Assembly (NCBI RefSeq): GCF_003611035.1
Contig: NZ_CP030033.1
Span: 3,410,001-3,474,000 of the forward strand
Length of the DNA stretch: 64,000 bases
Direction: 5' to 3'
Origin: Cryobacterium soli
Lineage (GTDB): Bacteria > Actinomycetota > Actinomycetes > Actinomycetales > Microbacteriaceae
Shown here piece after piece: positions 10,922-29,594 of this stretch (position 1 is its first letter; each line of letters opens with the position of its first letter). Both the position numbers and the translations under genes were made by a program. Under the pieces are notes generated by a model, which was not told where the DNA came from, did no database searches, and worked only from the letters and a program-made list of their open reading frames with translations.

Positions 10922-10942
10922 GCCCTTCGGGGGTGCCCCGCA

Positions 10943-10973
10943 CTGGGGGTGGGATTTCCCAGCAAACCCCCAG
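10943..10973. promoter_or_regulatory. Nested inverted repeats upstream of pilA
   Basis: An outer inverted repeat, CTGGGGGT (10943-10950) and ACCCCCAG (10966-10973), encloses a near-palindrome TGGGATTTCCCA (10950-10961). It sits in the 145-base gap before pilA, about 95 bases from the start codon. It could be an operator for the major pilin or a hairpin ending the pilB-T-C transcript; there is no T-tract, so an operator seems more likely. This is inference. Confidence 0.4.
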
Positions 10974-11066
10974 AATGAGGGTTATCGGCGGTCAAACCCT
11001 CAACCCTAGCCTCAAGGTGGACGGGCAACACCGCTTCCAGTCATCCCTACATGAACAGGACATGCA

Positions 11067-11513: not shown

Positions 11514-11622
11514 CCGCAGAACGGAACGATCGGCGGGGCTGGGCTCGGACGAACACGTCCCCTAGCCTCTCCGGTCGATTCTGAAGACAGCTCCACACGC
11601 GGATGAAAGCAATCGAGCTCCT

Positions 11623-12066
11623 ATGCCACTAGTGAAAATTAGACGTGCTTCATGCGGCGAGAACGCTGGATTCGGCATGATCGAAATCGTCATCGCGATG
11701 TTCTTGCTCGGCATTTTGGCCATGGCTCTGCTGCCGCTGTTGATCTCCTCGGCACAGCTCTCCTCCAACAATGTGACTCTGGCCACTGCTACTCAGCTGG
11801 TCAATGAGCAGATGGACGTCACCCGAAGGCTCGGCAAGAACTGTGCGGTCATCACCGCCCATGCCCACGAGACCGTCGGGCTGCTAGAAACCGACCCCCG
11901 CGGCACAAAGTTGGAGATGACCCGCATCGCCGGCTCGTGCCCGGCGACCTACCCCGGCACCATCGACTACACCGCCCAGGTACGGGTTCAGGGTTCGTCG
12001 GAGATCCTGGCTCAGGCCACCACTCGTATCTACCTCACCAGCGCAACCCTGGTCGTGGGTCCATGA
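11623..12066 (+). CDS. Minor pilin, PilV-like
   Basis: The 147-aa product has a class III leader ending at Gly16, then FGMIEIVIAMFLLGILAM, with Glu21 as Glu5 of the mature protein. Two cysteines lie in the globular part. The position between the major pilin and a PilW-like gene, and the PilV/PilI-like start, suggest it belongs to the initiation (tip) complex. The stop overlaps the next start (ATGA). Confidence 0.8.
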   Translation: MPLVKIRRASCGENAGFGMIEIVIAMFLLGILAMALLPLLISSAQLSSNNVTLATATQLVNEQMDVTRRLGKNCAVITAHAHETVGLLETDPRGTKLEMTRIAGSCPATYPGTIDYTAQVRVQGSSEILAQATTRIYLTSATLVVGP

Positions 12067-12674
12067 GAATTCGCGTTCGAGCTGTGTCGGCTGCCGAGCG
12101 AGGTGCCGACGGTTACACGCTCGTCGAACTGCTCATCTACTGCCTCTTCTCCGTCGTCATTCTCGCTGTCGTGGGGGGCATGCTCATCAGTTCGCTCACC
12201 GTGGAACACGAGGTGCGTGGTCTGACCGAGACATCCAGCCTGGGCCAGCTCATCTCCCAATCAGTGGAGGAGGGCGCGCGGAATGCGTCCGATATTCAGG
12301 CGGAGCCCACCGTTGCGGCGGGCCAGCTGCTCCGAGCCAGGGTTGCCGTGGGTACCTCTGCCGGCGTGGTCACCTGGCAATGTCAGGCCTGGTACTACGC
12401 CAGCGCCACCAAGAGTTTCTTCTGGGCCAAGAGCGGAACCGCGGCGATCCCCATTCCTCTGGCCGGTACGAACATGCACGCCGCTCCGTGGCTGTTTCTC
12501 GGAGACGGGGTCAGCCCGGACGGCGCCGGCGGCGCGTTTTTCGGCTCCGACGGCACCAACGTCATCCTTCGCTTCAAGGTCTCGTCAGACGCTGTGAACC
12601 TGGTTCTGATTCCCAACACGGTTGTTAAGCGGCAAGCCGCCGCAGGAGGAACAGGGCCCACGACATGCTTCTGA
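12063..12674 (+). CDS. Minor pilin, PilW/PilJ-like
   Basis: The 203-aa product has a class III prepilin signal with cleavage after Gly17 and the sequence YTLVELLIYCLFSVVILAVV; Glu22 is Glu5 of the mature form. The longer globular domain is typical of PilW-type minor pilins. The start at 12063 overlaps the previous stop by four bases, and its end overlaps the next gene by ten bases, so these minor-pilin genes are translationally coupled. Confidence 0.8.
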   Translation: MRIRVRAVSAAERGADGYTLVELLIYCLFSVVILAVVGGMLISSLTVEHEVRGLTETSSLGQLISQSVEEGARNASDIQAEPTVAAGQLLRARVAVGTSAGVVTWQCQAWYYASATKSFFWAKSGTAAIPIPLAGTNMHAAPWLFLGDGVSPDGAGGAFFGSDGTNVILRFKVSSDAVNLVLIPNTVVKRQAAAGGTGPTTCF

Positions 12675-14590: not shown

Positions 14591-15420
14591 CGGCCGGTGC
14601 CGCTATCGCCATGGTCCTTCTCGCGCTCTTCGGCACACTGATCGGTTCGTTCCTCAACGTTGTGGTGTACCGGGTGCCCAAAGGCCTGTCGATCGTGTCG
14701 CCGCCGAGTGCGTGCCCGGAGTGCCGCCACGCGATCCGCCCGCGCGACAACGTGCCGGTGCTGTCCTGGCTGCTCCTGCGCGGCAAGTGCCGGGACTGCC
14801 AGGCGCCCATCTCACCGCGGTACCCACTGGTGGAACTGGGGACCGGCGTCTTTTTTGCCCTCGTAACCTGGTGGGCGCTCAGCGGAGTCGCGACCGGCGA
14901 GACCATCGTGTCGCCCGGGGTGGGGTTGCTGCTGCTGGCCTTCTTGTATCTGGCCGCGGTCAGCGTGGCCCTGGCTCTCATCGACTTGGACACCCACACC
15001 CTGCCCGACAAGATCGTGCTGCCCTCGTATCTGGTCGGCGCAGCGCTGCTGACGCTGTCGTCCGTTCTCTCCGGTGACTACGGCCGGCTGCTGACCGCCG
15101 GCATCGGCCTGGTGGCACTCTGGTCGCTCTACTTGGTGCTCGCCCTCGCGTACTCGGGCGGCATGGGGTTCGGCGATGTGAAACTCGCCGGGCTGCTGGG
15201 CCTCTACCTGGGCTGGCTCGGCTGGGGACCGCTAGCGGTCGGGGCGTTCGGCGCGTTCCTGCTCGGGGGAATCTTCGCCATCGTGCTGGTGGTCACCAAA
15301 CGGGTCAGCCGCAAAGGCGGCATTCCGTTCGGTCCCTGGATGCTTGCGGGCACCTGGGTGGGCGTGCTCGCCGGTGAGTTCATCTGGCACGCCTACCTTT
15401 CCTCGTTCGGTTTGGCCTAG
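14587..15420 (+). CDS. pilD: Prepilin peptidase / N-methyltransferase
   Basis: The 277-aa polytopic protein has the leading IGSFLNVVVYR motif of prepilin peptidases. A cytoplasmic zinc loop carries Cys43-x2-Cys46 and Cys68-x2-Cys71. The two aspartyl protease sites lie in LIDLDTHTLPD (around Asp133-Asp135) and GFGDVK (Asp197). It cleaves the leaders of the four prepilin-like genes before it and methylates the new N-terminal residue. The start is GTG, overlapping the previous stop by four bases. Confidence 0.95.
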   Translation: MTAGAAIAMVLLALFGTLIGSFLNVVVYRVPKGLSIVSPPSACPECRHAIRPRDNVPVLSWLLLRGKCRDCQAPISPRYPLVELGTGVFFALVTWWALSGVATGETIVSPGVGLLLLAFLYLAAVSVALALIDLDTHTLPDKIVLPSYLVGAALLTLSSVLSGDYGRLLTAGIGLVALWSLYLVLALAYSGGMGFGDVKLAGLLGLYLGWLGWGPLAVGAFGAFLLGGIFAIVLVVTKRVSRKGGIPFGPWMLAGTWVGVLAGEFIWHAYLSSFGLA

Positions 15421-15494
15421 TCGTGGCAGCCAGCCGGCCACGCGGCGACACCGCGCATCTCCCCGCAAGCTCCGCCAGAAAGGACGTGTGACCG

Positions 15495-16544
15495 ATGGTC
15501 GCCAGCGTCGTAGGAATTGATATCGGCAGCACGGCCGTGCGAGCCGTCGAACTGACCGGAGCCAGCCGGGCGCTGCCGACGGTATTGAAGTATCACGCGG
15601 TGCCGTTGCCGGCCGGAGCGGTGCTGCGCGGCGAGGTACAGGAGGTCAACACGGTGGCCGAGGCGCTCAAACGGCTGTGGTCCGCCGGCGGTTTCGGGAG
15701 CAAGAATGTGGTGCTCGGCATGGGCAACCACCGCGTGCTCGTGCGCGACCTGGCCGTACCCAAGGGGTCGATGGTGCGCATCCGGGAGTCGTTGCCGTTT
15801 CACGTCCAAGACATGTTGCCCGTTCCCGTGGCCGACGCGCTGTTGGATTTCTACCCGATCTCCGAAAGCGTCGATGAAAACGGCCCGCAGGTACACGGGC
15901 TGCTTGTGGCGGCGGTGAAAGACGCCGTGCAGGCGAACGTGAAAGCCGTGCAACTGGCCGGGCTCATCCCCGTGGAGGTCGACCTGATCCCGTTCGCGCT
16001 GAGCCGCGTGGTCTACCGCGGTCAGCCCGACCCCGGCGCCGTGGTGCAGATCGACGTGGGGGCCCGAACCACCAGCGTGGTCGTCACCATTCTGGGGATC
16101 CCGCAATTCGTGCGCATCATTCCCGCCGGGGGCGAGGACCTCACCCAGGCGCTCGCCGAGCGGCTGCCCACCGACGTCGATCACGCCGAGGCTCTCAAGG
16201 TCTCGCTCGGGCTGGCCCCGACCGGCGTGGCACCCGGCTACGAGAACACGGTCACGATCATTCGCGAGGTCACCACCGAACTCCTCAACAGTCTGCGCAA
16301 CACCATCACCTACTTCGTCAACACCCGGCCCAACCTGGCCATCGACCGCATTGTGCTCTCGGGCGGCGGCAGCAACCTGATCGGTTTCGGTCAGGCACTC
16401 GGCGAGCTCACCCGCCACACTGTCGTGAGACCGGAGCCTTTGGCCTCCGTCACGTTCGGCCGGGGCGTGAGCGCCGACGAGTTCCAACAGGCAGGCGGCG
16501 ACTTCTACGTGGCGCTCGGCCTGGCCCTGGGTAGTGCGGCATGA
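15495..16544 (+). CDS. pilM: Type IV pilus assembly protein PilM
   Basis: The 349-aa protein has the actin-like ATPase fold of PilM: an N-terminal GIDIGSTAVRAVEL phosphate-binding loop and a C-terminal VLSGGGSNLIG adenosine motif. PilM is cytoplasmic and binds the N-terminal INLLP motif of PilN, which is encoded next. It starts 74 bases after pilD with AGAAAGGA upstream. Its stop overlaps the next start (ATGA). Confidence 0.93.
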   Translation: MVASVVGIDIGSTAVRAVELTGASRALPTVLKYHAVPLPAGAVLRGEVQEVNTVAEALKRLWSAGGFGSKNVVLGMGNHRVLVRDLAVPKGSMVRIRESLPFHVQDMLPVPVADALLDFYPISESVDENGPQVHGLLVAAVKDAVQANVKAVQLAGLIPVEVDLIPFALSRVVYRGQPDPGAVVQIDVGARTTSVVVTILGIPQFVRIIPAGGEDLTQALAERLPTDVDHAEALKVSLGLAPTGVAPGYENTVTIIREVTTELLNSLRNTITYFVNTRPNLAIDRIVLSGGGSNLIGFGQALGELTRHTVVRPEPLASVTFGRGVSADEFQQAGGDFYVALGLALGSAA

Positions 16545-17212
16545 GCCGGGCCGAGCCCGACGACGGGCTGATCCTGGGTGGTGAACCGCGCATCAATCTG
16601 CTCCCACCCGAGGTTACCCGGCAGGCACGCACGCGAGAGCTGCGCAAGAAGCTGGTGGTGGCCACAGCCGGTGTGCTGGTCGTGGTCGTCCTCGGAATCG
16701 GCGGCGCGTTCTGGCACTCCACCATGAGTGCGGCCCGGCTGGCCTCGGCCCAGGCCCACACCGCGGAACTCCTGACCGAGCAAACGAAGTACGTCAAGGT
16801 GCGCCAGGTGCAGACCGAGGTCGACACGGCCCTCGCCGCCCGGGGTGTCGGTGGCTGGACCGAGGTGGACTGGAAGACGTACCTGCAAGCCGTGCGAGCC
16901 GTGCTCCCGCCCGATGTGGGAATCGACGCCGTGGCGATCGACTCCACCTCACCCTTCGCGGCCTTCGTGCAGCCCACCGCGGCACTGCAGTCTCCCCGGG
17001 TGGCCACCCTGTCGATCACCGTCGCGAGTCCCGGCCTGCCGTCGGTGCCGCAATGGCTCGACGCGATGCACACCCTCCCCGGCTTCGCCGACGCGGTCCC
17101 CGGATCCATCACGAAGAAAGACGACGGCAGTTATCTCGTCGTCGTCACCATGCACATCAATGCCGGAGCCTTCAGCGGGCGTTTCAGCGACATCACCGGG
17201 GGTACCAAATGA
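16541..17212 (+). CDS. pilN: PilN-like alignment-complex protein
   Basis: The 223-aa protein has a cytoplasmic N-terminus containing INLLPPEV, the PilM-docking motif, then one transmembrane helix (about residues 43-63), a short coiled-coil region and a periplasm-type ferredoxin-like domain. It links the cytoplasmic PilM ring to PilO outside the membrane. Start and stop both overlap their neighbours by four bases. Confidence 0.88.
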   Translation: MSRAEPDDGLILGGEPRINLLPPEVTRQARTRELRKKLVVATAGVLVVVVLGIGGAFWHSTMSAARLASAQAHTAELLTEQTKYVKVRQVQTEVDTALAARGVGGWTEVDWKTYLQAVRAVLPPDVGIDAVAIDSTSPFAAFVQPTAALQSPRVATLSITVASPGLPSVPQWLDAMHTLPGFADAVPGSITKKDDGSYLVVVTMHINAGAFSGRFSDITGGTK

Positions 17213-17988
17213 CCACACGACGTTGGTGGGTGATCGGCTGCGCAGTGGTGATGGCCGTGGCGCTCGGTCTGGGCTGGTTGCTCGGTGCCTCGCCCTTGCT
17301 TGAAACGGCGCGGGTGGCCGACGTGGCTCGGGAGGGCGTAGAAGCGCAGAACCTGGCCTACGACCAGGAGCTCACAACCCTCAAGGAACAGTTCGACGGG
17401 ATCGGCGAGCTCGAAATCCAGCTGGCCGGCCTCCGCACCGAACTTCCCAACGGCACAGCGCTGCCCGCCTATGTGGCCCAGCTCGCGACCAGCGCGCAGC
17501 AGCACTCGGTGACTCTCACGACCATCACGGTCGGCGATGCCGTGGCCTACACGCCGCCTGTCACAGACGGGGCAGATCCGGCCGACACCGAGGCGGCTCC
17601 GACCGACACGGCCACGGATGCGCCCCCGACCGACACGGCCACCAGCCCACCGGCCACCCCCGCACCCGACGCCGTGCCTGCCACAGCATCCGTCGGTGCA
17701 GGAACACCCGTGACAAGCCCGCTCGTCACGGGCGACAACTTCGCGGCTATCCCCATCACGATCGCCCTGGACGGCGGCTACGCCAACGCGCTGGACTTCG
17801 TGGAGAGCCTGCAGAAAGGCACCCGGCTCACCACGGTCACCGCCTTCGGCACCACCAAGGTCGACGCCCCGGCGACGGTGGCCGAGGATGAAGATGCACC
17901 TGCCCAGGCGCCGGCGCCCACCGATGCGGTCAAGGGCACCATCTCCCTCTATATCTACGTGCTTCTCGGCCCGCCGAGCGCAGGGTAG
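17209..17988 (+). CDS. pilO: PilO-like alignment-complex protein
   Basis: The 259-aa protein has one N-terminal transmembrane helix (about residues 5-26), a predicted coiled coil (about 30-80) and a domain with AIPITIALDGGYANALDFVESL, typical of PilO. A Thr/Ala/Pro/Asp-rich insert (about residues 105-165) with repeated TDTAT units splits the domain and is not usual for the family. It is the last gene of the pilus locus; no PilP or secretin follows, as expected for a single-membrane cell. Confidence 0.82.
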   Translation: MTTRRWWVIGCAVVMAVALGLGWLLGASPLLETARVADVAREGVEAQNLAYDQELTTLKEQFDGIGELEIQLAGLRTELPNGTALPAYVAQLATSAQQHSVTLTTITVGDAVAYTPPVTDGADPADTEAAPTDTATDAPPTDTATSPPATPAPDAVPATASVGAGTPVTSPLVTGDNFAAIPITIALDGGYANALDFVESLQKGTRLTTVTAFGTTKVDAPATVAEDEDAPAQAPAPTDAVKGTISLYIYVLLGPPSAG

Positions 17989-18108: not shown

Positions 18109-19137
18109 ATGACCGACACGACGCCCCCTGAGGGAAACAAGAACGACAACCCGGATGCGCCCACCACGCCCATCCACGACGACCAGACCCCAGAGCCCAC
18201 CACCGTGGCCGACCCCAGCACGAGCGTGGACGAGACCGTGAGCGAGCCCTACGTGGAGCCCGCCGCAGAGACGCCCGCGCCCGACGCCGAGACCGCCGCG
18301 TACGTTCCCGGCGAGCCGATCGACTACGAGCCGGCCGCCCCGTACACCGCCACCGAGTCCGACGCGCCGACCGAGAAGGTCGAACGCCTCACCGTTGAGC
18401 CCGAGGCCACCCCGGCCGAGCTCGCCCGCGACGAAGCCGTCGCCCAGCAGAAGGACTACACCCCGGCGTACGTGCCCACGCCCGCCGCGGCCAACCAGCC
18501 GCCCGTGCAGCAGCCGAACGCCCAGCAGCCCGGCGCGCAGCAGTACACGCCCACCCAGCAGTTCGCGCCAACCCCGGTCTACGTCACGGCCCCGACGCCG
18601 CCCAAGACCGCGGGCAACCGCGCCGCGGGCATCCTCATCGGCCTGATCGCCACCGCCGTGTTCGCCGTGGTGTACGCGGTTGTCGCGTTCGTCATCTCCG
18701 CGTCGAGCGCCCCCACGGTCGCCGAGGCCACCGCACGCTTCACCGATTTCCTGGTGCTGCCGGTGTTCTACGTTCCGGTGATCTTCTTCTTCCTCGCCTT
18801 CGCCCTGCTGGTGGCGGTGCTCAACCGCGCCGGCTGGTGGGCCTACGTGCTCGGCGGCTTCCTCGTGGCCGTCGTCGTGTACTTCTCCTACATCGGTGGC
18901 GCCCTGCTCGCCGTGCAGGCGTGGACCCTCACCCCCGCCGAGGCCGGCCGGTTCGTGACCACCCAGTGGCTGAACCCCGGCGCCATCGCCGCGGCCATCG
19001 TGGCCCGCGAGGTGCCGATCTGGTTCGGTGCCTGGATCGCCCGCCGCGGTCGCAGCGTCACCGCGAAGAATGCCGCCGCCAAGGCCGAGTACGAGCGTCA
19101 GCTCGCCGAGGGACCGCAGCTCGCACGACCGGCCTAA
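18109..19137 (+). CDS. Membrane protein with acidic Pro-rich cytoplasmic N-terminus
   Basis: The 342-aa product begins with about 165 residues of disordered sequence rich in Pro, Glu, Thr and Ala, ending in a Gln/Pro-rich run. About four transmembrane helices follow (roughly 175-300), then a basic tail. I do not recognise the family. It begins the group of genes around the FtsK/FHA ATPase, so it may be an accessory membrane component of that system; the link is by position only. Confidence 0.75.
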   Translation: MTDTTPPEGNKNDNPDAPTTPIHDDQTPEPTTVADPSTSVDETVSEPYVEPAAETPAPDAETAAYVPGEPIDYEPAAPYTATESDAPTEKVERLTVEPEATPAELARDEAVAQQKDYTPAYVPTPAAANQPPVQQPNAQQPGAQQYTPTQQFAPTPVYVTAPTPPKTAGNRAAGILIGLIATAVFAVVYAVVAFVISASSAPTVAEATARFTDFLVLPVFYVPVIFFFLAFALLVAVLNRAGWWAYVLGGFLVAVVVYFSYIGGALLAVQAWTLTPAEAGRFVTTQWLNPGAIAAAIVAREVPIWFGAWIARRGRSVTAKNAAAKAEYERQLAEGPQLARPA

Positions 19138-19161
19138 CCGCCGGCGGTGCGGGGGGAGCAC

Positions 19162-19650
19162 ATGCGCGATTATCAGAAGTACGCGACCATCGTCGCCGTT
19201 TTCGCGACGGTGCTCTACGCCGCGCTGCTGGTGGCCGCCTTCGGCCTGATCAGTCTGGCGACCAACCTCGACGTCATCGCTGACCGCTCCGCCGGCCCGC
19301 TCGTCGGCCCCACCATGGCCGCCGTCTCGGTGCTGCTGGTGCTGCTCATGCTGATCCTCCTCGGCGTCAATACCCCACCCGACAAGCAACGTGTCGTGGT
19401 GGGGTTTGCCGTTGCCACGGGCATCGCCGCCTACGGCCTGTTCATCGCCACCGGCGCCATCCTCGTGGCCGCCGGCAACGGTGACCCGTTCGGCGTGATC
19501 CTCTTCGCCGGATCCATGCTCGCCAGCCCCTTCTCGCTCAGCGTGGGGGCGCTCGCGTTCATCGTGGCCCTCAGCTATTCGATCCTGCTCGCCTCGCACT
19601 ACGGCGAACACGGCCGCCCCCTCTGGCCCTGGGAACGCCGCGGCGAGTAA
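19162..19650 (+). CDS. Four-helix membrane protein
   Basis: The 162-aa protein is almost entirely hydrophobic, with four predicted transmembrane helices and short loops. The ATG at 19162 is preferred over an upstream GTG because GGGGGGAG precedes it at a good distance. It lies between the Pro-rich membrane protein and the secretion ATPase. No domain is recognised. Confidence 0.75.
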   Translation: MRDYQKYATIVAVFATVLYAALLVAAFGLISLATNLDVIADRSAGPLVGPTMAAVSVLLVLLMLILLGVNTPPDKQRVVVGFAVATGIAAYGLFIATGAILVAAGNGDPFGVILFAGSMLASPFSLSVGALAFIVALSYSILLASHYGEHGRPLWPWERRGE

Positions 19651-19721
19651 CGCCCGGACCCCTCGGCACCCACTGCACCACGCCCCGCACAGCTCTGCCT
19701 GCAACGTGAAATAGGTTCCGA

Positions 19722-22700
19722 ATGCGCCTCAAGCTCACCCTGGTTCGCCCCAACGGCGCCGCCAGCGACATCATCGTCACCGCGGATGCCGCCGCCACGA
19801 TCAGCGAGATCGCCGGCACCATCAGCCGGGTGGATGCGCAGACCGTGCACTCGCCCGACCGGTATCTCACCCTGCGCGCCACGCTGCCCGGGCAGAGTGC
19901 ACCGCTCACCCTGCCGCCCGACGGCCCGGTGGGGGAGGCGTGGATCGGCTCCGGCGCATCCGTGAGCCTGGCCGACGCCGGCGTGCTCTACCAGGCGCCG
20001 TCCACGCTCACCCAGCCGCCCGTCGCGCAACTGCGGGTGCTCACCGGTCCGGATGCCGGCACCGACTTTCCGCTCGCGCCCGGCAGCCTGGTGCTCGGCC
20101 GCGACCCCGGCTGCGACATCGTGCTGCACGACAGCCTGGTGTCCAAGAAGCACGCTCGCCTGGAGATCGGCGAGACCGTGGAGGTCATCGACCTCGGCAG
20201 CGCCAACGGCGTGGTGGTCGACGGCGGCATCGTGGGCCGGCTGCGCATCGCCAAGACCGAACGGCTGCTGCTCGGCGACTCCGAGGTGGAGATCAGCCTC
20301 GTGGCCGGCGCCGCCCCCGAGGCCGCGCCCAAGCCCGGCCCGATCTTCTTCAACCGCTCGCCCAAGGTGGAGAAGCGCTACATCGGCCAGGAGTTCACCG
20401 CGCCGGAGGTGCCGGTGGAGAAAGAGCCGCAGCCGTTCCCGCTGCTGGCGATGATCACCCCGCTGCTGCTCGGTGGCGCCATGTTCGCGTTTACGCACAG
20501 CCCCATCAGCCTGCTCTTCTGCCTGCTCTCGCCGGTGATGCTGATCGGCAACTTCGCCACGACCAAGTCCCGCGACAAGCGCCGGCTGGCCAAGGCCGTC
20601 GCCACGTTCGAGTCGCGCCTCGAGGTACTCACCGCACGCCTGGCCACCGAACGGGTCACCGAGTTCGACCTGCGGCTCAAGGAATCCCCGTCGACGCAGG
20701 AGGCGCACGAGCACGCGATGAACCGTGGCCCGCTGCTCTGGACCCGGCGCCCCGAACACTGGTCGTTCCTCAACGTGCGGCTGGGCATCGGCACCATGAA
20801 CTCCCGCAACACCATCAAGGACTCCAGCCGCGGCGATATGCTGCCCGAGTTCCAGGAGAAGCTCACCGAGGTCGTCGACGCCAACCAGACCCTCGACGGC
20901 GTGCCGCTGATCGACAACCTCTACGACTCCGGCGCGCTCGGCATCGCCGGATCCCCCGTGCAGGCGATGGGCTCGATCAACTCGATCCTCGTGCAGCTCA
21001 CCGCCCTGCACTCCCCGGCCGAGCTCGTCGTGGCGTCGCTGCTCACCCCGCGCTGGTCGCGCGAGCTGGAATGGCTCAAGTGGATGCCGCACACCTCGTC
21101 TCCGCACAGCCCGCTCGAGGGCAGCCACCTCGCCGACAGCGCCGCGAGCGCCAGCGCTGTGCTCTCCGGCATCGAGGGCGTCGTCGAGGCCCGCCTCGCC
21201 CAGGCCAAAACCCAGCGGCGCGGCGCGATGGGACAAACGGATGCCGCGCTCGAACGCGGCGGCGAGGTCGGCAAGGGTTCCGACCAGGGCACCAAGTCGC
21301 CCATCCCCGCGATCGTGCTGCTGATCTCCGACGACGTGGCCATCGACCGGGCCCGCCTCGTGCAGCTCGCCGAGATCGCCGCCGACGCCGGCGTCTACCC
21401 CATCTGGATCGGCCCGACCGTCGCGGCCCTGCCCGCCGTCTGCCGCACCTACCTGCATCTGTCCGACGAGGCCGGTTTGGCCACGGTCGGGTTCGTGCGC
21501 CTGGGCGAGACCATCGACAACGTCCTCACCGAACAGGTGGACTCGGCCACCGCGCTCGAATTCGCCAAGCGGATGGCCCCGGTCATCGACGCCGGCGCGC
21601 TCGTGGCCGACGCCAGCGACCTGCCCCGCACGGTGTCCCTGGTGACCCTGCTCGGCCACGAGATGGTGGAGAGCAGCGCCGCGGTCATCGACCGGTGGCA
21701 GCAGAACACCTCCATCCACGACCGCACCGGAGGCACCCCCAAGCCGCGCCGGGCCGGCAAGCTGCGCGCCATCATCGGCTCCGCCGGTGTCGACGCCATG
21801 CACCTGGACCTCCGCACCCAGGGCCCGCACGCCCTCGTCGGCGGCACCACCGGCGCCGGCAAGAGCGAGTTCCTGCAGGCCTGGGTGCTCGGCATGGCCG
21901 CCGAATACAGCCCCGACCGGGTCACCTTCCTCTTCGTGGACTACAAGGGCGGCTCGGCGTTCGCCGACTGCGTCACCCTGCCGCACTGCGTGGGCCTGGT
22001 CACCGACCTCAGCCCGCACCTGGTGCGGCGGGCGCTCACCAGCCTCCGTGCCGAACTGCACCACCGCGAGCACCTGCTCAACCGCAAGAAGGCCAAGGAC
22101 CTGCTCGAGCTGGAGAAGCGCGGCGACCCCGACAGCCCGCCCGCCCTGGTGCTCGTCATCGACGAGTTCGCGGCGCTGGCCACCGAGGTGCCCGAGTTCG
22201 TCGACGGGGTCGTCGACATCGCGCAGCGCGGCCGGTCGCTGGGCATCCACCTGATCATGGCCACCCAACGCCCCGCCGGCGTGATCAAGGACAACCTGCG
22301 CGCCAACACGCCGCTCCGCATCGCCTTGCGGATGGCCGACGAGTCCGACAGCACCGACGTGATCGGCACCAAGGACTCCGCGCACTTCGACCCGTCGATC
22401 CCCGGCCGCGGCGTGGCCAAGACCGGACCCGGCCGGCTCGCCCAGTTCCAGTCCGCCTATGCGGGCGGCTGGACCAGCCGCGAACCCGAGCGCGCTGGCA
22501 TCGACGTGCACGAGCTGCGTTTCGGCGCCGAGAGCCGGTGGGAGGAGCCCCGCTCCACCGAGAACGTCGACGAAGACCGCGACCTCGGCCCCACCGATCA
22601 GCAGCGCCTGGTCACCACCATCGTCACCGCCAACGCCGGCGCCGGCATCCCCGCGCCCCGCCGCCCGTGGCTCGACGAGCTCGCCGCCGCCTACGACCTC

Positions 22701-24194
22701 AGCCTGCTGCGGCAGCGCACGGATGCCGAACTCCTGCTCGGCGTCTCCGACGTCGCCGAGCAGCAGCAACAGGTCTCCGCGTACTTCCGCCCCGACATCG
22801 ACGGCCACCTCTCCGTCTTCGGCACCGGCGGTTCGGGCAAGTCGTCGGTGCTGCGCACCTTGGCCTGCGCCGCGGCAATCACCCCTCGCGGCGGACCCGT
22901 GCACGTCTACGGGCTCGACTTCGGTGCAGGCAGCCTGCGCATGCTCGAGCAGCTGCCGCACGTGGGCTCCATCATTATGGGCGACGACACCGAACGCATC
23001 GTGCGGTTGTTCCGCACCCTGCAGGGCGAACTCGACCGCCGCAAGGCGCTCTACGCCGAGGCGAACGCGTCGAACATCAGCGAGTACCGGCAGCTGGCCG
23101 GCCAGCCGACCGAGCCGCGCATCCTGCTTCTCATCGACGGCTTCCCCAACTTCCGCAACGACTTCGAGATCACCGCGGGCCGCGCCCAGTGGTTCGACGT
23201 GTTCAAGGACATTCTTTCCGACGGCCGCCAGCTCGGTCTGCACGTGGCCCTCACCGCCGACCGGGCCGGCGCCGTGCCCGCGTCGATCTCCTCCGCCATC
23301 CAGCGGAAGGTCGTGCTCAGGCTCGCCGACGACGGCTACGGCATGCTCGACGTGCCCAGCGACATCCTCAGCGTCAAGTCGCCGGCCGGTCGCGCCATCG
23401 TGGACGGCTTCGAAACCCAGATCGCCATCCTCGGCGGGCTCTCCGCCCAGTCGGCGCAGTCCGACGCCACCCGGCGGCTGGCCGAGGCCATGCGCCGCGC
23501 GGGCGTGGCGGAGGCGCCTGTCATCGGCTCGCTGCCCAAGGAGTACCCGCAGGAGCAGCTGCCGGCGCGCGTGGGGGAGCGGGTCGTGCTCGGTCTCGGC
23601 GACGTCGACCTCGGCCCGGCCGGTTTCGAACCCAGCGGCACCCTATTGCTGGCCGGTCCACCCGCCAGCGGCCGCAGCACCGCGATCGAGTCGATCGCCC
23701 GCTCGTTCAAGCGGTTCGAACCGGATGCGCGGCTGTACTACTTCGGCAACGCCCGCTCGCCGATCTCCCGGCTGGGCCTGTGGACAGAGGCCGCCACCAC
23801 CGTGGATGCCGTCGCGGCGCTGGCCAAGGACCTCGCCGCCGCGGTGGCCGACCCCGACACCGAGGGCCGCATCGCCGTGTTCGTCGAGAGCCTGGGCGAC
23901 TTCCTGCAGTCCAGCGCCGACGGCCCGATCCTCGAACTCACCCGGGCGGTCAAGCGCAGCGACCACTTCCTGCTCGGCGAGGCCGAGACCAGCGCGTGGA
24001 GCTCCTCCTGGCCGCTGTTCGGCGAGATCAAGAACTCCCGACGGGGACTCCTGCTTCAGCCCGAGTCGGTGGAGGGCGACATCCTGCTGAAGACCGCGCT
24101 GCCCCGGTTGAACCGTTCCGAGTTCCCACCCGGCCGAGGGGTGCTCATCGCCAAGGGCAACTTCGTGCGGGTGCAGCTGCCCCTCCTCCAGTGA
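19722..24194 (+). CDS. Type VII secretion motor ATPase, FHA-FtsK/SpoIIIE (EssC/EccC-like)
   Basis: The 1490-aa protein combines an N-terminal ubiquitin-like/FHA region, a membrane hairpin and three FtsK-type ATPase domains. The FHA domain (about 105-200) has GRDPGCDI, SKKHARLE and GSANGVVVDGG. The hydrophobic pair is near 243-275. Domain 1 has an intact Walker A (GGTTGAGKS, 707-715) and Walker B (LVLVIDEFAAL). Domain 2 has GTGGSGKS (1034-1041) but a Walker B reading LLLIDGF, lacking the usual Glu. Domain 3 has a degenerate GPPASGRST (1312-1320). FHA before FtsK is the arrangement of Firmicutes EssC rather than mycobacterial EccC. Confidence 0.9.
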   Translation: MRLKLTLVRPNGAASDIIVTADAAATISEIAGTISRVDAQTVHSPDRYLTLRATLPGQSAPLTLPPDGPVGEAWIGSGASVSLADAGVLYQAPSTLTQPPVAQLRVLTGPDAGTDFPLAPGSLVLGRDPGCDIVLHDSLVSKKHARLEIGETVEVIDLGSANGVVVDGGIVGRLRIAKTERLLLGDSEVEISLVAGAAPEAAPKPGPIFFNRSPKVEKRYIGQEFTAPEVPVEKEPQPFPLLAMITPLLLGGAMFAFTHSPISLLFCLLSPVMLIGNFATTKSRDKRRLAKAVATFESRLEVLTARLATERVTEFDLRLKESPSTQEAHEHAMNRGPLLWTRRPEHWSFLNVRLGIGTMNSRNTIKDSSRGDMLPEFQEKLTEVVDANQTLDGVPLIDNLYDSGALGIAGSPVQAMGSINSILVQLTALHSPAELVVASLLTPRWSRELEWLKWMPHTSSPHSPLEGSHLADSAASASAVLSGIEGVVEARLAQAKTQRRGAMGQTDAALERGGEVGKGSDQGTKSPIPAIVLLISDDVAIDRARLVQLAEIAADAGVYPIWIGPTVAALPAVCRTYLHLSDEAGLATVGFVRLGETIDNVLTEQVDSATALEFAKRMAPVIDAGALVADASDLPRTVSLVTLLGHEMVESSAAVIDRWQQNTSIHDRTGGTPKPRRAGKLRAIIGSAGVDAMHLDLRTQGPHALVGGTTGAGKSEFLQAWVLGMAAEYSPDRVTFLFVDYKGGSAFADCVTLPHCVGLVTDLSPHLVRRALTSLRAELHHREHLLNRKKAKDLLELEKRGDPDSPPALVLVIDEFAALATEVPEFVDGVVDIAQRGRSLGIHLIMATQRPAGVIKDNLRANTPLRIALRMADESDSTDVIGTKDSAHFDPSIPGRGVAKTGPGRLAQFQSAYAGGWTSREPERAGIDVHELRFGAESRWEEPRSTENVDEDRDLGPTDQQRLVTTIVTANAGAGIPAPRRPWLDELAAAYDLSLLRQRTDAELLLGVSDVAEQQQQVSAYFRPDIDGHLSVFGTGGSGKSSVLRTLACAAAITPRGGPVHVYGLDFGAGSLRMLEQLPHVGSIIMGDDTERIVRLFRTLQGELDRRKALYAEANASNISEYRQLAGQPTEPRILLLIDGFPNFRNDFEITAGRAQWFDVFKDILSDGRQLGLHVALTADRAGAVPASISSAIQRKVVLRLADDGYGMLDVPSDILSVKSPAGRAIVDGFETQIAILGGLSAQSAQSDATRRLAEAMRRAGVAEAPVIGSLPKEYPQEQLPARVGERVVLGLGDVDLGPAGFEPSGTLLLAGPPASGRSTAIESIARSFKRFEPDARLYYFGNARSPISRLGLWTEAATTVDAVAALAKDLAAAVADPDTEGRIAVFVESLGDFLQSSADGPILELTRAVKRSDHFLLGEAETSAWSSSWPLFGEIKNSRRGLLLQPESVEGDILLKTALPRLNRSEFPPGRGVLIAKGNFVRVQLPLLQ

Positions 24195-24221
24195 CGCCGT
24201 CTGGGTCACGGCCCCGTCGTC

Positions 24222-24240
24222 GGTCGAGCTTGTCGAGACC
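24222..24240. repeat. Dispersed GAGCTTGTCGAGA repeat, single arm
   Basis: GGTCGAGCTTGTCGAGACC lies 28 bases after the secretion ATPase gene. The same core recurs at 32604, 36192 and 51539 in this window, always between genes. Confidence 0.75.
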
Positions 24241-24281
24241 TCGTGGGCCGCTCCGTCGGAGCTTCGCTGCACCACGTATGT

Positions 24282-24313
24282 CTGGATGCGCCCGCTATAG
24301 CTGGCGCATCCAG
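24282..24313. terminator. Perfect 11-bp hairpin downstream of the secretion ATPase gene
   Basis: CTGGATGCGCC (24282-24292) pairs perfectly with GGCGCATCCAG (24303-24313) around a 10-base loop. There is no T-tract. It probably insulates the ATPase gene from the separately promoted Esx-like gene, acting as terminator or RNA processing site. Confidence 0.45.
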
Positions 24314-24353
24314 CCACAGGGGGTGCACCGAACGTCAGGCACCCACGCGACGG

Positions 24354-24399
24354 ATGGGGACCGCTGCCCATCGAACCCGTTCGGCCGCTTCGGTAATGT
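24354..24399 (+). promoter_or_regulatory. Candidate promoter and 18-bp motif before the Esx-like gene
   Basis: ATGGGGACCGCTGCCCAT at 24354-24371 has inverted ends (ATGGG/CCCAT). A TAATGT hexamer, a fair actinobacterial -10 box, follows at 24394-24399. The same 18-mer with two changes occurs at the same distance from a -10-like hexamer before the WXG100 gene at 28368. Confidence 0.5.
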
Positions 24400-24474
24400 T
24401 CAGGACAGGCAGCCGACCAGCGCGCATCCGTCGCGAGTGGCCCGGCCCCGCCGCAGACCAAGGGGGAACCGATA

Positions 24475-24801
24475 GTGAGTGATCTCAACTTCGACTTACA
24501 GCTGCTTCACCAGCTGCGTGACGACCTCGACGCGGTCGTCAACGAGTTCACCAACGCCGACGAGTTCAGCAATGACGTGGCGACCGCCACCGGGCACGAT
24601 GAACTCGGCGGGCACGTTTCCGACTTCGCCTCGAAGTGGAACGACAAGCGCAAGACGATGCTCGAGTCCGTCAAGGCGCTGCAGCAGAAGATCGGCGCCA
24701 TCACCGACGGTTTCACCGAGGTCGACGACAGCCTGGCGAAGGCTCTCAACGACGCCGCAGCGTCGATGCCGCCCATGACCGCAACGAAGGTGACCCCATG
24801 A
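24475..24801 (+). CDS. Esx-like small helical protein
   Basis: The 108-aa product is predicted all-helical and acidic, the size and character of WXG100 secretion substrates. A FASKWNDKR segment occupies about residues 50-58, but no true WxG turn is present. The start is GTG with AGGGGGAA upstream. It overlaps the next gene by four bases, an arrangement typical of a small secretion partner made with a large substrate. The assignment rests on size, helix content and the adjacent secretion ATPase. Confidence 0.7.
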   Translation: MSDLNFDLQLLHQLRDDLDAVVNEFTNADEFSNDVATATGHDELGGHVSDFASKWNDKRKTMLESVKALQQKIGAITDGFTEVDDSLAKALNDAAASMPPMTATKVTP

Positions 24802-26090
24802 CCGACAGCGAATTCCGCGCCCTCGAGGGCAACCCCGACCTGGTGCGCTCCAAGGCCGACCGCTACGCCGAACTGGCCGACGCCATCACTCGCTCCGTCA
24901 CCACGCTCAACGCGATCAAGTCGACCGAGGGCATGACCTCCAAGGCCATCGACAAGGTGCGTGAAGAGGCCGGCAAGGTGGCCGATGACATCGGCAAGGC
25001 ACAGACCCGGTACTCGGGCACCGCGCAGGCCCTCATCACCTACTCGGCGCAGCTGCGCAGTGCACAGGATGCGGCGGACACCGCGATCTCGCACATCAAC
25101 GACAAGGAGACCGCGGCCGAAACCGCCTCCCGAGCCGCCACCAGCGCCGCGACTAAGGCCGAGAGCGCCACACCCGAAACCGCGACCACCGAGACTGCCG
25201 CCGCCACGCGCGCAGAGACCGCCGCCGATGCCGCCGGGCAGGCCCTCGCGGCCGCGTACCAGGAGTGGCACTCCGCGCTCGACGTGAAGAACCAGGCCGC
25301 GCAGACCGCGATCGGCGCCATCCTCAACGTGATCGACGGCAAGGCGGGCGAGGCTCTCAACGACACCTGGTGGGACGACTGGGGCAAGGCCGCCCTCGAC
25401 ATCCTCAAGACCGTGTGCGAGTGGGCCGGGGTGCTGGCCATCTTCTTCTCCTGGGTGCCGTTCCTCGGGCAGATCCTGCTCGTGCTCGCGGTGATCGGCG
25501 CCGTGATCACCCTGATCGAGGCGACCATCAAGGCCGTCAACGGCGGCAACTGGGGCGACGTTGCGTTCGCTGCCGTGGGCGTCGTGCTGTCGGTCTTCGG
25601 CGGCAACATCGCCAAGTACGCCGGCAAGCTGGTGAAGGCGAAGGGACTGACCGCCGCCATGAAGCTTCCTCGCAAGCAGTTCACCACTCTCACCGGTATT
25701 CCCCGCAGCCAGAAAGCGGCCCAGCTCAAAGACGTGCAAGCGATGCTCGGCTCGCCGAAGAAGCTGCCGAACGTGATGAAGGAGGTCTTCGGCACAAACC
25801 CGCTCAAGATCTCCGAGAAGAACCTCGGCGCGGCTTGGCAGAACTACCGACGCAACCCGCTGGGCATTCAGGGCTTCGACAACCCGGTCTTCACCGGCGC
25901 GGCTGCGGCCGGGATTCCCACCGGAGCCTCGGTGTTCCTCGGCGTGATGAACTACCGCTCGCTCGCGGGCAAGGCTGAGACCATCACCAACAACCCGTTC
26001 AACCACGATGACCGGGGAATGGCGCTCAAGCCGGAGAGCATCCTCAAGGACCTCTCGCACGGCGACCTCCCCAAACTGACCCCCGGATAG
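24798..26090 (+). CDS. Putative type VII secretion substrate with central hydrophobic domain
   Basis: The 430-aa product starts with a long helical region (about 1-190). Its beginning, EGNPDLVRSKADRYAEL, resembles secretion-signal domains of actinobacterial type VII substrates. An Ala/Thr/Glu-rich helical stretch covers about 110-160. Two or three hydrophobic segments follow (about 205-280) and a polar C-terminal domain (about 290-430) of unknown fold. The hydrophobic middle recalls pore-forming or membrane-penetrating effectors, but no toxin motif is visible. Start chosen at 24798 because ATGA overlaps the previous stop; a longer frame upstream exists but would overrun the Esx-like gene. Confidence 0.75.
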   Translation: MTDSEFRALEGNPDLVRSKADRYAELADAITRSVTTLNAIKSTEGMTSKAIDKVREEAGKVADDIGKAQTRYSGTAQALITYSAQLRSAQDAADTAISHINDKETAAETASRAATSAATKAESATPETATTETAAATRAETAADAAGQALAAAYQEWHSALDVKNQAAQTAIGAILNVIDGKAGEALNDTWWDDWGKAALDILKTVCEWAGVLAIFFSWVPFLGQILLVLAVIGAVITLIEATIKAVNGGNWGDVAFAAVGVVLSVFGGNIAKYAGKLVKAKGLTAAMKLPRKQFTTLTGIPRSQKAAQLKDVQAMLGSPKKLPNVMKEVFGTNPLKISEKNLGAAWQNYRRNPLGIQGFDNPVFTGAAAAGIPTGASVFLGVMNYRSLAGKAETITNNPFNHDDRGMALKPESILKDLSHGDLPKLTPG

Positions 26091-26099
26091 GCTGACCGT

Positions 26100-26732
26100 A
26101 TGAGTGACGCTCCACTGAACGAAATCCTCGACCTCAGAATCCAGATCTCGGACGGGTTTCATCCTGTGCGGCTCGACGATGACATCGACTCGGCGACCTG
26201 GGCCCGCGAGGTGGTGACCGAGGTGTCCAGCCAGACCGGCAGCGTGGACGACAACGATTCGGTGCTGGCGCAGCTGGAGGAATTGCGCATTCGCCTGCTC
26301 GCGCAGCTGAATCCGTTCCTCACCGCTGCCGTGCACATCCGCTCGCAGGATGTCATGAGCCTGGGTCTGCTTCTCACCTTCCAGGTGGTCGAGATGGAGC
26401 CCGAGCAGGGCCCCGACTGGTATGAGAAGACCGCGCGGGAGCTGTCTGAGGACAGTGCGCCGGATGCGTTCACGCTCAACTTCGAGACCTGGCAGGGCGA
26501 GCTGCCCGCCGGGCGATTCGTCGGCGCCCACCAGGTCACCGAGTACTTCGGTTCGGGCGACGAGATGGGCTGGGTAGAAGCACGCACCATGTTCGGGGTC
26601 TTCCCGCCCAACTCCACCGAGATGGTGCAATTCACCTTCACCACCGCAGACCTGGCCACCTTCGGCGACATGCGCGCCGAAACACAGCTCATCGTCAGCT
26701 CGCTCGAACTCGACCTGGGGGTAGCGGAATGA
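26100..26732 (+). CDS. Hypothetical soluble protein in the secretion locus
   Basis: The 210-aa acidic protein has no signal peptide or membrane segment. A middle portion with LLLTFQVVEM and a C-terminal FTFTTADLATFGDMRAETQLIVSSLEL look like alternating beta strands and a final helix. The layout is similar to the next gene, so the two may be diverged relatives. By position it could be a chaperone for, or immunity protein against, the putative substrate encoded 10 bases upstream; this is inference only. Confidence 0.75.
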   Translation: MSDAPLNEILDLRIQISDGFHPVRLDDDIDSATWAREVVTEVSSQTGSVDDNDSVLAQLEELRIRLLAQLNPFLTAAVHIRSQDVMSLGLLLTFQVVEMEPEQGPDWYEKTARELSEDSAPDAFTLNFETWQGELPAGRFVGAHQVTEYFGSGDEMGWVEARTMFGVFPPNSTEMVQFTFTTADLATFGDMRAETQLIVSSLELDLGVAE

Positions 26733-27334
26733 CCCGTCAGATGAAGTTCGCCGAGGCGAACCTGTCGATCGTGCTGCCCGGTTCCTGGCTCACCCTGCCC
26801 CTCGACGACCCCGCGGGCCTGGAGCGCCAGATCGCCTCCGTGGTCAAGCGCCGCATCGGTCGGGACGACCGGCTTGCCCGCCTCCGCCGGGACGCGAAGG
26901 AGCAGCTGCGCGGGGTGGCCGCCGCTGCTGCCGCGGCGGGCGCATTCCGGGTGGCCCTGTCACTCGAGATTCTGCCGGGGGTGCCGTTCCCTGCCGCCAT
27001 GGTTCTGGACTATTCCGAGTGGCCGCCCGCGGCGCCGGGCGCGCCCGACGGTGACCCCGAGGAGCGCCTGCGGCTGGCGTTCCCCGGAGCCGATCTCCTC
27101 ACCCTCGACAGTGGCCTGGCGGCACGCCGTGCGTTCGCCTCCACCATCCGCGCCGGCGAGGAGACCACCAGCGACGTGAAGATCCAGTACTGGCTGGTCA
27201 CGCCGGAGGCCGACACGCTGCTGCACATCGTGGTGGATGCGCCCATGGCCAGCGACACCGACCTCTACACCCAACTCTTCGACGCAATTGTGGACTCAGT
27301 GCGGTTCACCGACGTCACGGTGGCTGTGTCGTGA
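26729..27334 (+). CDS. Hypothetical soluble protein in the secretion locus, possible Mog1/PsbP-like fold
   Basis: The 201-aa protein begins AEANLSIVLPGSWLTLPLD and ends LFDAIVDSVRFTD, the pattern of an N-terminal strand with Trp and a C-terminal helix plus strand seen in Mog1/PsbP/DUF1795-like folds. An Ala-rich helix sits at about 65-85. Its start overlaps the previous stop by four bases and its stop overlaps the next GTG start. The fold suggestion comes from pattern only. Confidence 0.72.
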   Translation: MTRQMKFAEANLSIVLPGSWLTLPLDDPAGLERQIASVVKRRIGRDDRLARLRRDAKEQLRGVAAAAAAAGAFRVALSLEILPGVPFPAAMVLDYSEWPPAAPGAPDGDPEERLRLAFPGADLLTLDSGLAARRAFASTIRAGEETTSDVKIQYWLVTPEADTLLHIVVDAPMASDTDLYTQLFDAIVDSVRFTDVTVAVS

Positions 27335-28233
27335 GCGGGCCGAAAAAGAGTGCTGCCGGACGCCGCCGGGATCTCGTCGCCAGCCGCTCCAGCACCGCAT
27401 CTCCAGGCCGATACGACGGTGTGCCCACCCGATTCCGGGCGAGCACGCTGTACCTGGCCGGCGGCATCCTGGTGCTCATCGCCCTGGTGGTGCTGGGCGT
27501 CCTGATCGCCGTGACCGCCCAGGGACGCAGCCTCGGCGACTTCGTCGGCGGCGCCAGTTGGGGAACCAATCTCGTTGCGGCGCCGATCATGATCCTCATG
27601 CTCGCCGCCGCCCCCCTCTTCCTGGCCGAATTCCACCGTCGTGGCCAGTGGAGCATCCGGGAGCGCGGGTTCATCCAGGGTGGCTCCAACGTGGTCGAGC
27701 TGCGGCCGGCCCCGTTGTGGAGTCGTGCGCTCTTCATCCTGCTCAGTGTGGCGGCGTGGGTGGGGCTCATTGCGGTGCCGGTCTACCTCGACGTCACCAC
27801 GGATGCGTTCGCCGATGCCGACGACAGCCTCTGGGTGCTGCTCGTGCTGTACGGGTTCTTCGCGTCGGGGATGGCCGCTGTGCTGCTGTTCTCCCTGCTC
27901 AAGCGGCTCACCTACGAGCCCCTGGCCAACCGGTTCGGCGACCAGATCGTGCCCGGCTCGGTGAGTCAGGTGTTCTGGCGAGCAATGTCGTATCGGTTCC
28001 GGTTCGAGCTCTGGTTCGCGTTCGGGTTCGGCGCGATTCTCGGAACCATCCCGCTGGTCTACCAGTCCGCCGCCGACGACTGCTACACCCAGTCGTGCGC
28101 CGTCGTGCCCGACCCCGCCTGGCTGGCGTGGATCTTCTGGATCGCCGTGGGCACCGGGCTCTGTGCGCTGATCGGCTGCCTGAACGCGTGGCGCAGCGGC
28201 AAGTCGCTCTACAGCGGCGAATCCGTCTCCTAA
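27331..28233 (+). CDS. Polytopic membrane protein of the secretion locus
   Basis: The 300-aa protein has a basic cytoplasmic N-terminus and about six predicted transmembrane helices (roughly 40-62, 75-100, 135-155, 165-190, 225-245 and 265-285). Two cysteines lie in an outer loop near 252-258. The GTG start overlaps the preceding stop. It could form part of the membrane channel, since no EccB-, EccD- or EccE-like gene is nearby, but I see no family motif. Confidence 0.75.
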   Translation: MSGPKKSAAGRRRDLVASRSSTASPGRYDGVPTRFRASTLYLAGGILVLIALVVLGVLIAVTAQGRSLGDFVGGASWGTNLVAAPIMILMLAAAPLFLAEFHRRGQWSIRERGFIQGGSNVVELRPAPLWSRALFILLSVAAWVGLIAVPVYLDVTTDAFADADDSLWVLLVLYGFFASGMAAVLLFSLLKRLTYEPLANRFGDQIVPGSVSQVFWRAMSYRFRFELWFAFGFGAILGTIPLVYQSAADDCYTQSCAVVPDPAWLAWIFWIAVGTGLCALIGCLNAWRSGKSLYSGESVS

Positions 28234-28260
28234 CCAGCACGGGTAGCGCGTGGGGATCGC

Positions 28261-28307
28261 ATGGGGAGTGCTGCCCATTCCGCCCCCCAACCAGGGTTCG
28301 TTAGGTT
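28261..28307 (+). promoter_or_regulatory. Candidate promoter and 18-bp motif before the WXG100 gene
   Basis: ATGGGGAGTGCTGCCCAT at 28261-28278 matches the motif at 24354 in 16 of 18 positions. TAGGTT at 28302-28307 is a possible -10 box at almost the same spacing; TATACA just beyond (28307-28312) is an alternative. Confidence 0.5.
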
Positions 28308-28367
28308 ATACATAGTCGGTCGGCCTGAGGGGGTTGGCCCCGAACGAATAAACAAGGAGCTCTTCTC

Positions 28368-28664
28368 ATGGCGAATATGAACGTTACTTACAGCGAAATG
28401 CGCGACGCGTCCAAGAACCTGATCTCAGGCAAGGACGACCTCACCGCCAAGCTTTCCCAGCTGCAGAGCCTGGTCAACAACCTCGTCGCCGGCGGCTTCG
28501 TCACCGACGCCGCCTCTGGGGCCTTCCACACCTCCTACGAGCAGTTCACCAAGGGAACCACCGAGGCCGTCAACGGCCTCACCGGCATGTCGGAGTTCCT
28601 CATCCGCGCCGCGGACGCCATGGAGAACGTCGACAGCGAGCTCGCTCGCGGCATCAGCGGCTAA
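28368..28664 (+). CDS. WXG100-family type VII secretion target
   Basis: The 98-aa helical hairpin protein has the family pattern: helix, turn, helix, with GGFVTDAASGAFHTSYEQF at the turn. The signature WxG is replaced by FVT, but the following A-x-x-x-F-x-x-x-Y-x-x-F pattern is well kept. The C-terminal helix (AADAMENVDSEL) is typical. AAGGAGC precedes the ATG. Expression is from its own promoter, and a strong terminator follows, so it is a single-gene unit. Confidence 0.88.
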   Translation: MANMNVTYSEMRDASKNLISGKDDLTAKLSQLQSLVNNLVAGGFVTDAASGAFHTSYEQFTKGTTEAVNGLTGMSEFLIRAADAMENVDSELARGISG

Positions 28665-28714: not shown

Positions 28715-28863
28715 GTCTTCCCGGTTCGTCGCGGCGGGTGCCCGCACGGCGCTCTCGCTCCGGCGGGCTCGGTCAGGCACCCGGGCCGGCGGCACTGGGC
28801 CTCCCTGGCGGCTCGATACCATGGCGTAATGACCAGTGCCGCATTCCTGCCGAAGCCGCGCGC

Positions 28864-29505
28864 GTGACGCGCACCGTACCCGCCACCATCGTCGACCCGT
28901 CCGAGGGGCCGCAGCGGGTGCCGCACAGCCGTTTCGAGAACGTGGTGGCCCTGTTCATCGGAACCTTCGCCGTCTCCTTCGGGCTCTACCTCCTCAAGGA
29001 GGTGGGTGTCGCCACCGGCGGCACCGCGGGAATCGCCCTGCTCGCCAGCTACGCCACCACCTGGTCGTTCGGCGTGTGGTTCGTGCTGGTCAACGTGCCC
29101 TTCTTCGCGCTGGCGATCTGGCGTATGGGCTGGCGCTTCACCGTGAAAACGCTCGTCGCGGTGGTACTCGTCTCGCTCTTCTCCGAGGTCCACCCGCTGC
29201 TGCTGGAAATCCGGCACATCGAGCCGATCTATGCCACCCTGCTGGGCAGCCTGTTGGCCGGCATCGGCCTCATCGTGCTGTTCCGGCACCAGGCGAGCCT
29301 GGGCGGGGTCAACATCCTCGCGCTCTATCTGCAGAAGAGCCGCGGCTGGCGCGCCGGCTACGTGCAGCTCGTCGTGGACGTGCTCATCGTGCTCGCCGCC
29401 TTCGCCACCCTGCCGGTGCCCATGGTGCTGCTCTCGGTGGTGGGCGCGGTCATCCTCAACATGATCATCGCCATGAACCATCGCCCCGACCGCTACTTCG
29501 GCTGA
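28864..29505 (+). CDS. YitT/YczE-like membrane protein
   Basis: The protein is about 213 aa with five to six transmembrane helices. The opening FENVVALFIGTFAVSFGLYLLKEVGVATGGTAGIALL is the YitT family start, with the conserved TGGTxGIALL motif, and a second copy-like LGGVNILALYL follows the fourth helix. Function of the family is poorly known. The GTG at 28864 is used as start because the frame upstream has no family sequence; no good ribosome binding site supports it, so the exact start is uncertain. Confidence 0.8.
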   Translation: MTRTVPATIVDPSEGPQRVPHSRFENVVALFIGTFAVSFGLYLLKEVGVATGGTAGIALLASYATTWSFGVWFVLVNVPFFALAIWRMGWRFTVKTLVAVVLVSLFSEVHPLLLEIRHIEPIYATLLGSLLAGIGLIVLFRHQASLGGVNILALYLQKSRGWRAGYVQLVVDVLIVLAAFATLPVPMVLLSVVGAVILNMIIAMNHRPDRYFG

Positions 29506-29588
29506 GACACCCGCTGGTCGAGCGTGCCCGCCGTGCCCTTTGCTGGCTGGGCTTGCTGAATCCTGGTGACTCCGGCGGCCGCACCGAC

Positions 29589-29594
29589 TAAACT
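29589..29594 (+). promoter_or_regulatory. Candidate -10 element for a short-leader transcript
   Basis: TAAACT lies eight bases before the ATG at 29603, with no Shine-Dalgarno sequence between. This is the layout of leaderless or very short-leader transcripts common in actinobacteria. Confidence 0.35.

Follow-up and report, generated by a model that had tools for sequence, protein, structure and literature searches.

Five components, TsdA, TsdC, TsdD, TsdH and TsdI, define the T7SSd, a type VII secretion system of Actinomycetota, in the main text of its description (Garrett, Higginson and Palmer 2024, PMC11217815). TsdI is a large immunoglobulin-like (Ig-like) protein with an N-terminal signal and a C-terminal transmembrane (TM) segment; TsdH is a small single-TM protein, and a YukD-like ubiquitin protein is not part of the system. 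Fibronectin, MoxR, DUF58, transglutaminase (TGase) and PFNA are absent from the same main text (PMC11217815). The T7SSb is composed of EssC, EssB, EssA, EsaA and EsaB, the T7SSa (ESX) of EccB-E and MycP. The PFNA operon of Bifidobacterium consists of pkb2, fn3, aaa-atp, duf58 and tgm and is read as host signalling; type VII, WXG100 and FtsK do not occur in the main texts of its two sources (PMC8430577, PMC6803598). A literature search found no paper linking MoxR, DUF58 and TGase with type VII. The subject here is a locus of Cryobacterium soli in the window, a stretch of 64,000 nucleotides (G000:C1:3410001-3474000) of the single 4.39 Mb contig C1 over which the genome-wide searches were made. 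It holds an FHA-bearing, FtsK-type motor ATPase and, downstream, a cassette of cargo genes. Motor and cassette are likely the displaced motor-and-cargo half of one two-locus type VII system related to T7SSd; the other half would be R2 (C1:4265110-4286829), about 0.84 Mb away on the chromosome.

Synteny and the probable partner locus

Related loci were taken as the best 80 of at least 559, skewed to close relatives, and all their genes were clustered. Among the 81 loci including the window, two or more genes of the kinase, FHA7, TGase, DUF58, PP2C, MoxR and Ig-like set are present in 40, one in 7 and none in 34; the counts are limited by many contig ends. Seven titled records were used for synteny, three of them (L074, L087, L104) metagenome-assembled genomes. 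In six (L071, L072, L073, L074, L087, L104) Ig-like, MoxR, DUF58 and TGase genes are followed by the motor with its linked genes, then by an FHA gene and leuC; leuD and murA come after leuC where the record extends far enough, and L087 has one additional gene between FHA and leuC. The parts are the same in L110; here the stretch from TGase to FHA contains motor and cassette in inverted orientation, and a second cassette precedes leuC. R2 and G054 (L221) have the same flanks without a motor, the frame that holds the FHA gene starting right after the TGase stop codon. The called FHA start of R2 is 570 bases past that stop, and one opposite-strand gene precedes leuC. The window motor sits before rpsL; the leuC-leuD slot of R2, filled by a motor in the 7 related records, has none, and the window locus is read as the probable displaced half because of this absence. 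The rpsL site as the other chromosomal home is found in Agrococcus (L102), where the partner set lies with a motor directly before rpsL. Motor and cassette may have moved away from the leuCD site of R2, or they may have been lost from R2 and be present at the rpsL site.

This motor type was found in 41 of 149 genomes of the order (best match above about 880 bits, a threshold of our own) and also in other classes of Actinomycetota (G338, G411). FHA7 occurs in 52 of the 149, together with the motor in 35 (Fisher p 2.6e-15, uncorrected for kinship), without it in 17; the motor alone occurs in six (G009, G067, G116, G130, G132, G139). Of the 35 genomes with both, 28 have motor and FHA7 within 20 kb of each other; in the other 7 (G000, G031, G047, G054, G083, G105, G119) the two lie apart, on different contigs in G054 and G105.

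Two partner sets, R2 and R1, were found by searching the genome with TGase and kinase sequences of relatives, queries that are unspecific (TGase matched all 18 and kinase all 10 of the genomes searched, motor-less genomes included). Genes were called with a script of our own; starts are approximate, open reading frames below 40 codons were not called, and at low-GC loci, where the script is poor, open frames were used instead. R2 encodes PP2C, FHA, kinase, FHA7, two Ig/FN3 proteins, MoxR, DUF58, TGase and FHA. Its Ser/Thr kinase (C1:4267425-4269095; Pkinase 2.6e-33) has one TM-like segment and HRD and DFG motifs. As called, the Ig/FN3 proteins measure 1739 and 1746 aa, and the first contains Big_9 and fn3 domains; hydropathy places a TM-like segment at the N-terminus of each protein and none at the C-terminus. 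Their genes (C1:4270141-4280947; L147, L148) are tandem copies, 87% identical over 1680 residues. With PFNA, R2 shares kinase, fn3-domain protein, MoxR, DUF58 and TGase, a likeness of gene content and not of compared Bifidobacterium sequences.

R1 (C1:1420646-1438201; L145, L146) is a divergent set with kinase, PP2C, Ig-like, MoxR, DUF58 and TGase genes. Given these genes, R1 could serve the window motor, or the motor could lack a fixed partner set; the leuCD synteny would then reflect history only. Such an arrangement is improbable: R1 has its own FtsK-type motor, of 990 aa and without an FHA match, and the genes flanking motors of the window type are closer to those of R2 than to those of R1 (best matches TGase 53% vs 35%, MoxR 78% vs 66%). 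An R1-like motor with Ig, MoxR, DUF58 and TGase genes is also present in G021 (L206).

The earlier note had proposed a minimal, reduced system without EccB, EccD, EccE or mycosin, possibly with channel subunits of its own. Profile searches of the whole genome covered EccB, EccD, EssB and mycosin. EccB, EccD and EssB were not found: each profile gave 0 matches, the positive controls being 9 of 60 family genomes for EccB, 8 of 60 over the cut-off for EccD, and B. subtilis for EssB. EssA and EsaA were not found among the ten locus proteins scanned with Pfam and NCBIfam, and no genome-wide search was made for these two. A mycosin-like subtilase is encoded at C1:4092972; its score (252.9 bits) is below the cut-off of 278.75, and the profile matches 55 of 60 family genomes at E 0.001 and none of the 60 over the cut-off. 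The gene lies in a run that we take to be eno-ftsB-DUF501. A dedicated mycosin was rejected on the low score, the wide occurrence in the family and this context.

A truly self-sufficient system, in which the membrane proteins of the window form the channel, would agree with these negative searches and with the six TM-like segments of the 27331 product, which does belong to the cassette. It is nevertheless very unlikely and was rejected on the partner sets elsewhere in the genome and on R2 being motor-less exactly at the slot that holds a motor in the related records; completeness of the locus was not confirmed, and a reduced system with private channel subunits is contradicted. The genes 18109 and 19147, named by the note as membrane partners, look like bystanders. 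The slot for a protein with at least three TM-like segments, where 27331 stands, is filled in 39 of 66 scored cassettes by 21 gene clusters and empty in 27. A slot this variable fits an immunity protein more readily than an invariant channel. What looked like a minimal system is probably a split one, and its genes give a testable inventory of a type VII subtype of Actinomycetota.

The congener G125 (L218, G125:C16) has a motor gene split across several frames, and neither FHA7 nor a homologue of the substrate was found there; TGase matches are weak (best 4.7e-26), and the kinase match is the strongest of the ten genomes searched, so G125 appears to keep some related partner set.

Motor relationships

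The motor, with FHA before FtsK as previously reported, was confirmed. The FHA domain occupies about residues 105-186 and two TM-like segments residues 239-280, followed by the FtsK/SpoIIIE domains; Walker A and B of the first ATPase are intact by eye (GGTTGAGKS, DEF). In 13 aligned motors G126, R127, S141, H144 and G163 of the FHA domain are invariant and N162 nearly so; the first four presumably have a phosphothreonine-binding role. EssC is the top NCBIfam model (497.6 bits, cut-off 778.4), followed by EccCa (352 bits) and EccCb (307 bits), all below cut-off; the EssC-like order in an actinobacterium was likewise borne out. Solved relatives include 4nh0 (an EccC, presumably of Thermomonospora), YukB of B. 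subtilis (9qks) and EccC5. Nearest titled motors, among the best 80 of at least 559 loci, are those of Cryobacterium zongtaii (92%) and Cryobacterium sp. N22 (93%, both for the best segment). The N-terminus (98 residues, window 19722-20015) resembles a ubiquitin-type fold by eye and is possibly ubiquitin-like; when profiles were compared, six EccD N-termini reached E 0.13 and five unrelated controls 0.20-0.27.

A phylogeny of the ATPase, as the note had suggested, was built from 53 motors with two T7SSd-ordered proxy loci and two T7SSa EccC, without a T7SSb motor or a named TsdC. The window clade is separate from the T7SSd-ordered clade (supports 0.96-0.99; some inner nodes down to 0.07), and both are far from the two EccC. 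The window motor is 32% identical to a T7SSd-ordered proxy and 27-28% to two EccC of family members.

With T7SSa the locus shares an EccC-type ATPase, a WXG100 protein and, by predicted fold, a PPE-like substrate head; it differs in the lack of EccB and EccD matches and in the low identity to EccC. With T7SSb it shares the FHA-TM-FtsK order and the best-scoring EssC model, but the genome is without an EssB match and the FHA domain is of the phosphothreonine-binding type. The likeness to T7SSd is broader: WXG100 protein (28368-28664 vs TsdA), EssC-like motor bearing an FHA domain in which the phosphothreonine residues are conserved, single-TM Ser/Thr kinase (TsdD; here in trans) and a very large Ig-like protein of the putative envelope half.

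These common features would also fit the published T7SSd with nothing new added, as would the T7SSd-ordered locus L193, where the motor is followed by Esx-like, Mog1-like and substrate-like genes, with only 18 bits for the Esx-like and 17 for the Mog1-like match. This simpler account is rather unlikely. The window motor belongs to a clade other than that of the two T7SSd-ordered loci; no small single-TM gene like TsdH was called, among frames of at least 40 codons, between the R2 kinase and the Ig gene; PP2C, the further FHA proteins, MoxR, DUF58 and TGase are outside the five components of the T7SSd main text; and those five are encoded in one cluster, the present system in two distant loci. 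The locus is therefore classed as one half of a variant related to T7SSd, its motor standing apart from the T7SSd-ordered clade.

Putative cargo cassette and proposed roles

The order of the cassette is Esx-like partner, PPE-like protein with hydrophobic hairpins, two Mog1/PsbP-like proteins, six-TM protein and WXG100 protein (Table 1). Three junctions of the locus have 4-base gene overlaps, which suggests coupled translation.

Table 1. Genes of the motor locus and its upstream border (window coordinates)
Position	Strand	Assignment	Basis
18109..19137	+	probable bystander membrane protein	homologues beside DUF6121 in 8/12 family loci, motor within 1.5 kb in only 1
19147..19650	+	probable bystander DUF6121 membrane protein	PF19616 31.8 bits
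19722..24194	+	T7SS motor ATPase	1490 aa; N-terminal domain, then FHA and a pair of TM-like segments ahead of the FtsK/SpoIIIE ATPase domains
24475..24801	+	small helical protein of Esx-like type, probably pairs with 24798 product	its family precedes substrate gene in 67/70 cases
24798..26090	+	candidate secreted substrate	residues 1-189 form an Esx/PPE-like helical head, about 206-272 hydrophobic hairpins; C-terminus of weak conservation
26100..26732	+	Mog1/PsbP-superfamily-like protein 1, candidate substrate chaperone	profile likeness to 26729 family
26729..27334	+	Mog1/PsbP-fold protein 2, candidate Eag-like chaperone of hydrophobic substrate	predicted fold
27331..28233	+	six-TM protein, candidate immunity protein	6 TM-like segments; clusters F31 and F37 homologous
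28368..28664	+	WXG100 protein, TsxA-type component or co-substrate	PF06013 59 bits; family in 70/81 loci

Of the Esx-like proteins claimed in the note, 28368 stands as a WXG100 protein, in which GGF is found by eye in place of the expected W-x-G; 24475 is a remote WXG100 relative only (PF06013 11.7 bits; 74% probability and E 2.7e-5 when its profile is compared with that of the WXG family). The head of the 24798 product is PPE-like by predicted fold; Foldseek of its model gave no match below E 0.001. The 26729 product has a Mog1/PsbP/DcrB-like fold in its structure model; EspG is absent among the matches listed for this model, which excludes nothing. The 26100 product, without a Pfam or NCBIfam match and with an alternative start possible at 26166, is likened to Mog1/PsbP by profile only (vs the 26729 family probability 96%, E 4.5e-9), the fold being predicted for 26729 alone. 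DUF1795 or any other Pfam family was not matched by either up to E 1.

Eag chaperones of type VI secretion systems (T6SS), EagT6 and SciW, bind the TM helices of PAAR effectors and are encoded beside substrates with a helical head and hydrophobic segments (PMC7773334). Compared with these, the 26729 product is alike in its Mog1/PsbP-like fold and in adjoining the gene of a helical-head substrate with hydrophobic segments; the cassette is unlike in having no DUF1795 match, two copies, a type VII context and no PAAR. A PsbP/MOG1-like protein beside T6SS toxins has been regarded as a possible adaptor (Zhang et al. 2012, PMC3482391), and a PsbP/MOG1-like domain has been called diagnostic of T6SS secretion (2025 paper, PMC12419801). 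Among the papers listed in the literature search none combines Eag chaperone with type VII secretion; four mention DUF1795 and type VII secretion together, a few times each.

By analogy, Eag-like chaperones would load a membrane-active substrate. The two Mog1/PsbP-like proteins might instead be immunity or regulatory proteins, since the fold also occurs in Tsi3 and TplEi/Tli4, T6SS immunity proteins that reach a better Z than the Eags do. This is an unlikely role here. Tsi3 and TplEi/Tli4 are periplasmic, and the 26100 and 26729 products are probably cytosolic because the former has no TM-like segment and the latter only one, borderline. The Mog1/PsbP-like proteins also come paired, while the many-TM protein varies.

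In the model drawn from gene content, synteny, co-occurrence and predicted fold, the 19722 ATPase would export the Esx/PPE-like substrate 24798, its partner 24475 and the WXG100 protein 28368. The 26100 and 26729 products would act as cytosolic chaperones that shield the hairpins of 24798 before export, like type VI Eag proteins; the substrate would be toxic, and immunity of the producer would come from the six-TM protein 27331. R2 would supply the envelope and control half, in a physical complex with the motor. Its Ig/FN3 proteins possibly span the wall, with the TGase-like and DUF58 membrane proteins and MoxR alongside, and its kinase/phosphatase pair would set assembly through the FHA domains. 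Only tentatively, at somewhat less than an even chance, is the Ig/FN3-MoxR-DUF58-TGase-kinase-phosphatase operon, PFNA in bifidobacteria, taken further, as the module for envelope and control functions in an undescribed but widespread type VII subtype of Actinomycetota that loads PPE-like membrane-inserting toxins via paired Eag-like Mog1/PsbP chaperones. If true, a well-studied bifidobacterial operon would be tied to protein secretion, and a way in which type VII systems may carry hydrophobic cargo would be predicted.

Neighbouring genes

DUF6121 matches in 24 of 60 family genomes. Twelve DUF6121 loci were returned with 1.5 kb flanks, a span in which a more distant motor would escape detection: rpsL is beside DUF6121 in 8, a homologue of 18109 is present in 8 and a motor in 1. 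The genes 18109 and 19147 (19162 in the earlier note) were rejected as membrane partners on this pattern; they are probably bystanders outside the system and mark the rpoC/pilus-rpsL neighbourhood. Directly upstream (window 9692-17988) is a run of pilus-type genes, which we take to be pilin-like, prepilin peptidase-like and PilM/N/O-like. Downstream of the cassette a gene was called at 28864-29505; the Pfam/NCBIfam scan of 28836-29591 covered another frame. The only other PF06013 match in the genome is a lone WXG100 gene at C1:3623745-3624035 (L149), which comes just after a gene that is presumably groEL and is on the opposite strand.
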